Below are positions 30,398-55,945 of a DNA stretch of 64,000 nucleotides, piece by piece. Made by a program: the position numbers and the translations under genes. The stretch's first letter is position 1. Each line of letters starts with the position of its first letter. Below the pieces are notes generated by a model that saw only the letters and a program-made list of their open reading frames with translations, was not told where the DNA came from and searched no databases. The DNA comes from Acidobacteriota bacterium (lineage in GTDB: Bacteria > Acidobacteriota > Thermoanaerobaculia > Multivoradales > JAGPDF01), in assembly GCA_014584695.1 (NCBI GenBank), contig JACTMI010000007.1:1-64000 (forward strand), in the 5' to 3' direction.

Positions 30398-31167
30398 GCC
30401 CGCACCTGCCGGAGTCGCTCGCGCCGCACCCGGCCGGCGCGCCGCCGGGGTCCCCGCGACGCGCGCTGATCCGCTTCGCCATCCTGGTCGTGCTGATCGC
30501 CGGCAGCTTCGCCGCGGTCCGCTTCACGCCGCTCCGGGAGCTGCTGACCGCCGAGCGGCTGGGCGCGCTGCTCGAGACCGCGCGCGGCCACTGGTGGACG
30601 CCGCTCGCGCTGGTCGGCCTCTACGGCGTGCTCTGCCCGCTCGGCGTGCCGGCGTCGCCGATGATCGTGGTCGGCGGCGCGATCTTCGGCTTCGGCTGGG
30701 GGACGTTCTGGAACTGGCTCGGCGGGCTGGTCGGGGCCACCGTCTCGTTCCTGCTCGCCCGCTTCCTCGGCCGCGAGTTCGTGGAGAAGATCGGCGGCAG
30801 CAAGATGCGGCGCGCCGAGCAGATGCTCTCCCGCCGCGGCTGGCCGATGCTGATCGGCATGCGCTTCCTGCCCGTCCCCTTCGCGCTCGCCAACTCGGCG
30901 GCCGCCGTGGTGGGCGTCCGCCTGCTGCCGTTCCTCGTCACCACGGCGATCGGCCTGGTGCCGCCGATGGCGGTGCTGACCTACGCCGCGACGGCGCTGC
31001 TCGCCGCCGCCGAGGGCAGCCGCGGCGAGATCCTGCGCAACCTGACGCTGGTCTTCCTGCTGTTCGGCTCGCTGGTGATCTTCCCGGTGATGATCCGCCG
31101 CCGCCTGCGCAAGCGCCGCCTGGCCCGCATCCTCGCCCGCCGCGCCGCCCGCACCAACGGCGCCTGA
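30394..31167 (+). CDS. TVP38/TMEM64 (DedA-like) membrane protein; start uncertain
   Basis: FGFGWGTFWNWLGGLVGATVSFLLARFLGREFV...MRFLPVPFALANSAAAVVGVRLLPF; no obvious ATG/GTG near the start. Confidence 0.75.
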   Translation: MSPHLPESLAPHPAGAPPGSPRRALIRFAILVVLIAGSFAAVRFTPLRELLTAERLGALLETARGHWWTPLALVGLYGVLCPLGVPASPMIVVGGAIFGFGWGTFWNWLGGLVGATVSFLLARFLGREFVEKIGGSKMRRAEQMLSRRGWPMLIGMRFLPVPFALANSAAAVVGVRLLPFLVTTAIGLVPPMAVLTYAATALLAAAEGSRGEILRNLTLVFLLFGSLVIFPVMIRRRLRKRRLARILARRAARTNGA

Positions 31168-31192
31168 ACGCCACCTCCGCGACGCCAAGCAG

Positions 31193-31280
31193 AGGAGCGA
31201 GCTGAGGAGGCGAGCGACCGCGGTGGGGTGAGGCCGCCGGATTCACTCCGGCGGCCGAGGGGAGGGCGCGTGCCCTCCCC
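31193..31280. repeat. double-hairpin dispersed repeat, copy 1
   Basis: GGCCGCCGG-ATTCACT-CCGGCGGCC (31232-31256) and GGGGAGGGC-GCGT-GCCCTCCCC (31259-31280); matching second copy at 55693-55779. Confidence 0.88.
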
Positions 31281-31282
31281 CT

Positions 31283-32989
31283 TCAGACAAACAGCGGCAC
31301 GCGTTCGAAACGGTCGACGTCGACCAGGCCCTGGTCGGTCAGCTTGAGGCTGGGGATCACCTCGAGGGCGAGGAAGCTCATCGCCATGAAGGGATCGTGG
31401 AGCGTGCTGCCGAGCGCGCGCGCGGCGGCGATCGCCTCGTCGAGCCGGCGGCGGACCTCCTCGATCGGGCGGTCGCTCATCAGGCCGCCGAGCGGCAAGG
31501 GCACCTCGGCCGCCACGCTCTCGCCCTCCGCGACCACCAGCCCGCCGCCGAGCGCCGCGGCGCGCCGGACGGCGGTCGTCATCGACGCGTCGTCGGCGCC
31601 GATCACCACCAGGTTGTGGTGGTCGTGGGCGACCGAGGAGGCGAGCGCGCCGCGCCGCAGGCCGAGGCCGCGCACGAAGCCCTTGCCCACCGCCCCCGAG
31701 GCATGGTGGCGCTCGACCACCGCCATCGCCAGCAGATCGCGCTCGGGATCCGCCACCGCGCGGCCGCCGCGCACGGTCGGGCGGTCGATCTGGTGCTCGG
31801 TGATCAGCTGGTCCGGGATGGCGCCGATGACCCGCAGCCGGTCGCCGGCCACGGCCACCGTCAGATCGAGGCTCGCCCAGTCGACGTTCATCGTCCCGCG
31901 CAGCCGGGGCAGCGCCGGGCGCTCCGCGCCGCCCACCAGCGCGCCGTCGCGCGCCGCCAGCTGGCCGCCGCGCCAGACCAGGTGCGGGCGCGGGGCGGTC
32001 AGGTCGCGGAAGGCGATCAGGTCGGCGCGCCGCCCGGGGGTGATGGCGCCGCGGTCGCGCAGGCGGAAGTAGTCGGCCGGGCTGGCGGTCGCCAGCCGGA
32101 GAGCCACCACCGGCTCGACCCCGGCGGCGATCGCCATCCGCACCAGGTGATCGACGTGGCCCTCGTCGAGCAGATCGGCCGGCTGGCGGTCGTCGGTGCA
32201 GAGGCAGAGCCGCGGGGAGTTGAGCGGCGTGACCAGCGGCAGCAGGGTCGCGAGATTGCGCGCGTTGGTCGCCTCGCGCAGGAAGACGGTCATGCCCAGG
32301 CGCAGCTTCTCGCGCGCCTCCTCGACCGTGGTCGACTCGTGGTCGGAGCCGATGCCGGCGGCGGCGTAGGCGGCGAGCGGCCGCCCGGTGAGACCCGGAG
32401 CGTGGCCGTCGATCGGCTTGCCGGCGAAGGCCTCGAGCTTGGCGAGCACGTCGGGGTCGCCGTGGACGACGCCGGGGTAGTTCATCACCTCGGCCAGGCC
32501 GAGCACCCAGGGGCTCGAGCTGAAGGAGGCGAGGTCGACCGCGTCGAGGCTGGCGCCGGAGGTCTCCATGCCGGTCGCCGGCACGCACGAGGGCGCCATC
32601 ACCAGCATCGACAGCGGCGACCCCTTGGCGCACTCGAGCATGAAGCGGATCCCCTCGAGGCCGAGGACGTTGGCGATCTCGTGGGGATCGGTGACCACGG
32701 TGGTGGTGCCGCGCGGCACCACCGCGCGCGCGAACTCCGCCGGCGTCACCAGCGAGCTCTCGACGTGGACGTGGGCGTCGATCAGCCCGGGAGCGAGATA
32801 GGCGCCGCCCAGGTCGACCACCTGGCGGGCGCGGTACCCCGAGCCGACCCCGACCACGAAGCGGCCGGAGATCGCCACCTCGGCCGGGTAGATCTCCCCC
32901 GCCAGCACGTCGACCAGCTTCAGGTGGGTGAGCAGCAGGTCCGCCGGCTCGTGCCCCGCCGCCTGCCGGATCCTGGTCGCGAGCTCCAT
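31283..32989 (-). CDS. ade: adenine deaminase
   Basis: LAPGLIDAHVHVESSLVTPAEFARAVVPRGTTTVVTDPHEIANVLG...CTDDR...HDHHNLVVIGAD. Confidence 0.93.
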   Translation of the reverse strand: MELATRIRQAAGHEPADLLLTHLKLVDVLAGEIYPAEVAISGRFVVGVGSGYRARQVVDLGGAYLAPGLIDAHVHVESSLVTPAEFARAVVPRGTTTVVTDPHEIANVLGLEGIRFMLECAKGSPLSMLVMAPSCVPATGMETSGASLDAVDLASFSSSPWVLGLAEVMNYPGVVHGDPDVLAKLEAFAGKPIDGHAPGLTGRPLAAYAAAGIGSDHESTTVEEAREKLRLGMTVFLREATNARNLATLLPLVTPLNSPRLCLCTDDRQPADLLDEGHVDHLVRMAIAAGVEPVVALRLATASPADYFRLRDRGAITPGRRADLIAFRDLTAPRPHLVWRGGQLAARDGALVGGAERPALPRLRGTMNVDWASLDLTVAVAGDRLRVIGAIPDQLITEHQIDRPTVRGGRAVADPERDLLAMAVVERHHASGAVGKGFVRGLGLRRGALASSVAHDHHNLVVIGADDASMTTAVRRAAALGGGLVVAEGESVAAEVPLPLGGLMSDRPIEEVRRRLDEAIAAARALGSTLHDPFMAMSFLALEVIPSLKLTDQGLVDVDRFERVPLFV

Positions 32990-33671
32990 CGCGCAGCCTC
33001 CGCGCGAAGTGTAGCGCCGAATCCTCGAATGACAGGGAGAGGCAAGGCTGGGTCGATCCGACGAAGCAACGGGGAAGCTCCTCCCCATTCTCCGACCGGG
33101 CGAGATGGCACGGCTCGTTGCCCGGGCGAGGGCTGCTCCGCTGCAATCGGAGCGCCTGCCGGGCTAGCTTCGCTCCGCCTGACCCAGGGCAACTGAATCC
33201 ACGAGGTCGAAGCCTCGGCCGTATGCGCGAATAGGGGATGGTTCCCAGACCGCGAACCAGGATCGGTGACGACACTCCGGGGTACTCAGTAGTGCTCGAG
33301 GGGCTCGGCGAGACGTTGGGCGCTCACGCGCGGGCACCTCCTAAAGCTCTCCTTTGTTCCTCGGGTGGGAAGCGCGATTCAACGAGACGAGTCGCTTCCA
33401 GCTTGAGGTTCCGGGCGCTCCAATCCCGATTGCTCTTGAAGCCTGGGCCTGCCGAGCGCCCGAATCTGTCGCCTGGTTCGTTCTCGGAGTAGCCGTTCAA
33501 CCGGCCGATCGCCCTTCGGGCGGCGAAGTCCAGCGAGGCATCGCTTCGGGTTGCTCCCTGGGGATCCGAAGCGCTGAGGGTCAGGGTCAGCCGGCAGCGG
33601 GGGGGCTGAAAGGGCAAGCAGGCCACAGCTTCGAGATACCGGACAGGCATCGGGATCGCAAAGGAGGCGGA

Positions 33672-55235: not shown

Positions 55236-55637
55236 GTGGCCGGGTCCGAGGTCCGCATCGACAAGTGGCTCCACGTGGCGCGCGTGTTCAAGAGCCGCGC
55301 GCTCGCCAGTCGCGCCTGCCAGCTCTCGCGCGTGCGGGTCAACGGCAGCGCGGTGAAGCCCCACCGCCCCCTGACGGTCGGGGATCGGATCGAGGCCGAG
55401 GTCGGCGGCGACTGGACGCGCGTGCTGGTGGTGCGCGAGCTCGCCGACAAGACCCTGCCCAAGGCCGAGGTGCCGCGCCTGTTCGAGGACCTGTCGCCGC
55501 CGCGGCCGAGCGCCGATCCGCTGACCCGCCTGCTGCGCCGCCCGCTGGTCCGGCGCGAGGCCGGCGCGGGCCGACCCACCAAGCGAGAGCGCCGCGCGAT
55601 GGAAGCCTACGAGAGCTTCCTCGCCGACGACGACTGA
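55236..55637 (+). CDS. RNA-binding S4-domain protein (Hsp15-like)
   Basis: [49 protein letters not shown]. Confidence 0.9.
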
Positions 55638-55692
55638 GCACCAGCTCCCAGAATCCCCACGCCCAGCGCACCGTCCGATGGCGTGCAACCCC

Positions 55693-55779
55693 AGGAGCGA
55701 GCCGCCAGGCGAGCGACCGCGGAGGGGTGAGGCCAGCGGATTCACTCCGCTGGCCGAGGGGAGGGCGCGTGCCCTCCCC
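55693..55779. repeat. double-hairpin dispersed repeat, copy 2
   Basis: GGCCAGCGG-ATTCACT-CCGCTGGCC (55731-55755) and GGGGAGGGC-GCGT-GCCCTCCCC (55758-55779). Confidence 0.88.
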
Positions 55780-55945
55780 TGTGCAGTCGACCGCCCTTCG
55801 CCGCGGTGCGGCAACGAATCCCCACCCGGGCGCGCAGCGCTCACCCACCCGATCGGCGGGTCCCGCCGGGCCGCGCGGCGGGCACCCTGTTTCTGGAGCG
55901 ATCGAGCAGGGCTCCGCGAAGCCGGAGACCCGGGGTGGAGGGGAG

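Follow-up and report, generated by a model that had tools for sequence, protein, structure and literature searches.

A REP-like insertion element behind stop codons in an uncultured Thermoanaerobaculia bacterium and its possible role in Rho-dependent 3′-end formation

Since rut sites carry little sequence signature, the evolution of Rho-dependent transcript ends and the recruitment of dispersed repeats as regulatory parts are open questions. REPs are dispersed intergenic palindromes that lie 3′ of coding regions, between convergent and co-directional genes (PMC3733652). According to an earlier report that PMC2817692 cites, E. coli REPs facilitate Rho-dependent termination, which provides a precedent for the behaviour proposed below. 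In the published description of a Rho-dependent terminator, a stretch rich in C, poor in G and free of ribosomes precedes GC hairpins (PMC6407284).

The stretch of DNA analysed here (the window, 64,000 nt) belongs to the metagenome-assembled genome of an uncultured, Thermoanaerobaculia-type acidobacterium (G000). It contains two forward-strand copies of a repeat with an 86-bp core, both found where an earlier note on this DNA had located them. Copy 1 has a core made up of the 5′ module, the linker GACCGCGG-N-GGGGTGAG and both hairpins, which spans 31195..31281 and scores 93.8 bits against the covariance model described below; hairpin 1 (GGCCGCCGGA-TTCAC-TCCGGCGGCC) lies at 31232..31256 and hairpin 2 (GGGGAGGGC-GCGT-GCCCTCCCC) at 31259..31280. 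It is preceded on the same strand by a putative rut site, a stretch with more C than G (C/G about 1.8 over 78 nt, 31117..31194) that consists mostly of the end of a VTT-domain gene (stop TGA at 31165-31167) together with a 27-nt spacer, and it is followed by the convergent adenine deaminase gene ade (31283..33088, reverse strand), whose stop is 2-3 bp past the copy. Copy 2 has its core at 55695..55780 (104.8 bits), hairpin 1 (GGCCAGCGGA-TTCAC-TCCGCTGGCC) at 55731..55755 and hairpin 2, of the same sequence as in copy 1, at 55758..55779. Upstream on the same strand lies an S4-domain gene (55236..55637), and the 57-nt C-rich spacer between its TGA (55635-55637) and the core forms the putative rut region (55638..55694). 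The stem differences between the two copies are two genuine compensatory pairs, as the note had read them. Its hairpin 1 also stands, with corrected dimensions: in place of a 9-bp stem and the loop ATTCACT, the sequence folds into a 10-bp stem closed by a 5-nt loop.

A covariance model derived from 43 sequences matched 54 copies in G000, distributed over about 20 of its 48 contigs, and a BLAST search of the same genome returned 63 matches; the two window copies are not the only ones, a case that the earlier note had named as refuting its reading. Copies were few in three related species (two in G003, two in G004, four in G006), and the element was absent from 68 other genomes of the same order. 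In GTDB r220 an exact pattern scan hit two records and no others, one of an 'Acidobacteria bacterium ACD1' MAG and one of a 'Thermoanaerobaculia bacterium' MAG; they correspond to the G003 and G006 loci. The element is restricted to one Thermoanaerobaculia family and has expanded in one species. Collections of phages and plasmids and IMG/VR contained no match, and on these grounds spread by phages, plasmids or viruses was rejected. No Rfam family reached its gathering threshold with the element. We lean slightly towards regarding it as a REP-like non-coding insertion element, undescribed in the sources searched here, a judgement that covers the whole explanation developed below, including the role of Rho.

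The core is laid out as GAGCGAGCC..GGC(TCGC/GAGC)GACCGCGG-N-GGGGTGAG, hairpin 1, GA, hairpin 2 and a final T. Across the 43 distinct sequences hairpin 2 is almost invariant, and in hairpin 1 four pairs are altered on both sides, giving 35 double-sided cells versus 12.0 +/- 2.4 in shuffles. The covariation score was 0.095 versus 0.038 after shuffling, and none of 500 shuffles reached either this score or the double-sided count; the loss of covariation over a larger set of copies, which the note had named as counting against its reading, did not occur. Hairpin 1 occurs in G000 with no fewer than five different stems, each fully paired, and in G004 and G006 it has another sequence and the same shape. 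Core folds in G000 had z-scores of -4.3 to -5.2 relative to dinucleotide shuffles. Hairpins 1 and 2 together contain seven G-U versus two A-C mismatches, which weakly favours folding as sense RNA. An extra 5′ hairpin, GCGAGCC-N4-GGCTCGC, is whole in 24 of the 43 aligned sequences and broken in the other 19 by a swap of TC to GA. The resulting alleles of the 5′ module (GGCTCGC, whole; GGCGAGC, broken; core columns 18-19 of the alignment) occur with no intermediates and sometimes alternate inside one array, a pattern that could reflect template-switch inversion. A pseudoknot between loop and linker (GGTGAG with TTCACT) was considered and judged sterically unlikely over a 10-bp stem; moreover, the loop varies in G004 and G006.

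In the full-length form, about 210 nt, the 86-nt core is flanked by a 5′ unit and by a 3′ unit able to form another hairpin; most copies now retain the core. Homologous 5′ and 3′ units are kept in a few copies (the accD site, C6:262178, C9:175081 and one G003 site), the clearest of which show an additional hairpin, GCGCGGGC..GCCCGCGC. Tandem repeats, either of the 5′ module (period about 44-49) or of the tail, occur at some loci. At C15:98609-98787, C18:110880-111063 and C5:67344-67605, for example, 5′ modules are arrayed head to tail directly before the core, with tail repeats after it. These arrays look like slippage at hairpins 1 and 2, and their junctions would fit slippage between the GGA in hairpin 1 and the GGA at the core start.

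To place the element relative to genes, genes were called with a simple home-made codon-usage scorer. Of 38 clusters, 18 lie between convergent and 20 between co-directional genes; no cluster separates divergent genes. Convergent sites give no information on orientation; at the co-directional sites, 19 of 20 clusters are in the sense direction (p = 4e-5). The genes upstream are unrelated and from their sequence include those for GAPDH, AccD, PntB, a GGDEF protein and an S4 protein. Spacing is narrow: in 24 clusters the stretch from TGA to core measures 48-77 nt (58-62 nt counting the TGA in 17 of them), such that the core typically starts 55-59 nt past the TGA stop. About ten clusters, copy 1 of the window among them, have short spacers. 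By eye, promoter-like or tRNA sequences follow the element in several co-directional loci, and from these it appears to lie at the ends of transcription units. The copies at C20:41080 and C16:181970 are located between a protein gene and a tRNA gene promoter region, and the copy at C8:8386 is preceded by a 43-aa membrane-protein-like ORF.

Over roughly 78 nt ahead of the hairpins the sequence is rich in C, poor in G and weakly structured. With background statistics taken from one 340-kb contig, C minus G in the spacer was 0.197, compared with 0.022 across 60 other 3′ regions (p = 3e-7); the minimum free energy of the spacer was -9.5 versus -18.9 kcal/mol (p = 5e-9). The excess extends into the coding sequence at synonymous sites: at wobble positions, C minus G reached 0.55 in the last 5 codons (p = 2.5e-7), 0.47 at 5-10 codons from the end (p = 2.3e-5) and 0.31 at 10-20 codons from the end (p = 9e-4), with no significant difference from background farther into the gene, so that the C>G bubble covers the last ~20 codons. 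YC dimers also exceeded those in shuffles (p = 0.0016). By a RhoTermPredict-style rule (78-nt window, C/G > 1.5, cytosines every 11-13 nt; rule from PMC6407284), such windows were found in 23 of 24 element genes versus 38 of 286 other genes. In the ten short-spacer clusters the stretch is mostly inside the gene, right before the hairpins, with a median C/G of 1.61 versus 0.96 (p = 1e-5); this comparison was chosen after the main result had been seen, but on different loci.

Because the G-rich linker is near-invariant although unpaired, and pairing with the spacer was seen in one fold, we considered an attenuator-like switch between two RNA folds in which the C-rich spacer pairs with this linker (GGAGGGGTGAG). 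The predicted pairing was no better than with shuffled spacers (-17.9 versus -17.5 kcal/mol, p = 0.92); this pairing was rejected, and a switch of this kind is highly improbable.

Comparison with relatives shows that the element is an insertion. The accD-folC spacer measures 10-29 nt in five relatives versus 213 nt in G000, where it is filled by a full-length copy. A similar short gap is present behind pntB in G003. The empty sites at accD-folC show that the element inserts directly behind stop codons, and pntB looks alike. The accD-folC element (C7:695-780 and flanks, about 210 nt) may have split an operon. At the ade locus, which was compared in the same way, gene order is unconserved in the relatives. 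None of the genes beside the G003, G004 and G006 copies is orthologous to an element-bearing site of G000. CTGA stands at both ends of two full-length copies, and the base directly before the TGA is C in 23 of 24 genes with the element versus 131 of 237 others; C plus TGA may be a target motif, and the C may equally be attributed to the C-rich stretch.

These observations, together with the lineage-specific expansion and four Y1 transposase genes (PF01797) in G000, are what would be expected of a REP-like insertion element that has no part in termination, is tolerated behind stop codons, and keeps its hairpins for its own mobility through a transposase recognising folded single-stranded DNA. 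However, no core was found in the 6 kb around each of the four PF01797 genes, and a link to RAYT/Y1 proteins was rejected, no copy being near the Y1 loci examined. Mobility alone also leaves unexplained why copies are oriented in sense, why synonymous sites carry the C>G bubble and why this bubble shifts into the gene where spacers are short. We regard it as a fairly unlikely account of the whole. A 25-bp, 84% core match lies 2.3 kb from a Y1 transposase gene (L057:5300-5324, E = 0.03); it is weak and probably due to chance.

A further possibility is that the element inserts preferentially into, or survives at, Rho terminators or C-rich gene ends that already exist, and does not create them. 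Some element-free gene ends are C-rich as well, and for accD the element-free orthologues had C/G values of 1.06-1.60 versus 1.36 with the element. In contrast, element-free orthologues of pntB ranged from 0.72 to 1.39 versus 2.00 with the element, and those of a 2-oxoacid oxidoreductase gene from 0.79 to 1.10 versus 1.83. Among the three genes compared, then, the C>G stretch looks acquired at pntB and the oxidoreductase gene and pre-existing at accD, and preference for pre-existing ends seems an unlikely general explanation. In the most ancestral-looking copies (the accD site and the G003 sites) the 5′ unit contains a hairpin and the excess of C is small, which suggests that the rut-like leader may have arisen secondarily.

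G000 encodes Rho, and a scan for U-tract terminators at copy 1 detected none; other copies have tails with the sequence TTTCAG, TGTGAG or TTCTAG. A GC hairpin with no T-rich tract led us to reject an intrinsic terminator, on the basis of the scan at copy 1. Two sequence features described for Rho-dependent terminators are present: a ~78-nt stretch of C>G with cytosines every 11-13 nt, and a hairpin within 150 nt downstream, the core hairpins beginning where the C-rich stretch ends. Given this C-rich, ribosome-free stretch with its GC hairpins, the Rho gene and the missing U-tract at copy 1, we read the element as a 3′-end module. According to this model, sense transcription of the upstream gene would run on into the element. 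Around the stop codon (about -35 to +45) the RNA is rich in C, poor in G and weakly structured, and there it would load Rho after the ribosome departs; RNA polymerase would be halted over or past the GC hairpins. The same hairpins would bar 3′-5′ exonucleases and set a stable mRNA 3′ end. Its placement after stop codons, with a rut-like stretch upstream, points to termination and 3′-end formation, and the element probably marks mRNA ends. The earlier note's suggestion of a conserved structured element, possibly a mobile palindrome or a 3′-end RNA motif and possibly undescribed, agrees with 54 covarying copies inserted at gene 3′ ends and matching no Rfam family. On sequence evidence, we consider it somewhat probable that at the mRNA level this insertion element serves both as a Rho-dependent terminator and as a stable 3′ end.

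The hairpins might instead be mRNA 3′ stabilisers or weak intrinsic terminators that work without Rho, the C-rich leader serving just to keep the region unstructured for hairpin folding. The very stable sense-strand fold, the weak lean of its mismatches towards sense RNA and the unstructured spacer would all suit such a function, but the U-tract is absent at copy 1 and YC dimers exceed what composition gives, an excess that mere lack of structure would not need; we consider this quite unlikely.

If the element does act through Rho, a mobile repeat might build Rho-dependent ends. Insertion behind a stop codon would supply a hairpin pause site and a 3′ barrier. Changes at synonymous sites in the last ~20 codons of the host gene and at non-coding sites in the spacer would then produce a C-rich stretch for loading Rho, giving standardised termination modules for more than 30 transcription units of one genome. 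We offer this extension tentatively and hold it at less than even probability. Several observations count against a Rho-dependent role of the element as such: termination behind accD would shut off folC unless that gene has a new promoter, the accD gene end is already C-rich in element-free orthologues, other gene ends are C-rich without the element, and the most ancestral-looking copies have little excess of C.

How, then, does the element compare with known systems? Like REPs (palindromic units) and BIMEs, it is a dispersed intergenic palindrome at the 3′ ends of convergent and co-directional genes and shows stem-preserving substitutions; high copy number, extragenic location, placement at gene 3′ ends and compensatory stem changes make it REP-like in the broad sense. 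It is not, however, a classical REP or REPIN, the class that the earlier note had offered as one possibility, and it departs from that class in tag, size, RAYT association and inversion. The tetranucleotides GTAG (GTRG) and CGTC are absent from the 43-sequence consensus on either strand. A REP palindrome has 20-40 bp, whereas the core here is 86 nt with three hairpin positions (two to three hairpins). Copies in the REP/RAYT system flank a RAYT gene, and the element has no RAYT neighbour; adjacent copies in REPINs and BIMEs are inverted and alternate, whereas copies of the element within a cluster share one orientation. It differs from REPs and BIMEs also in its fixed stop-codon distance and C-rich leader. 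With intrinsic (U-tract) terminators it has in common a GC hairpin at gene ends, but, in the scan at copy 1, no U-tract. To our knowledge, ordinary rut sites do not occur as dispersed repeats. In this one genome more than 30 likely transcript ends are tagged by an inserted repeat that can be recognised, and relatives have empty sites; the origin of a termination signal can thus be traced from one site to the next, along with synonymous change in the adjoining gene. The element resembles Rho-dependent terminators of the RhoTermPredict model (PMC6407284) in its little-structured RNA stretch of ~78 nt with more C than G and with spaced cytosines, its GC hairpins within 150 nt and its position near stop codons, and it differs from them in that its pause or hairpin part is repeated, conserved in sequence and inserted.
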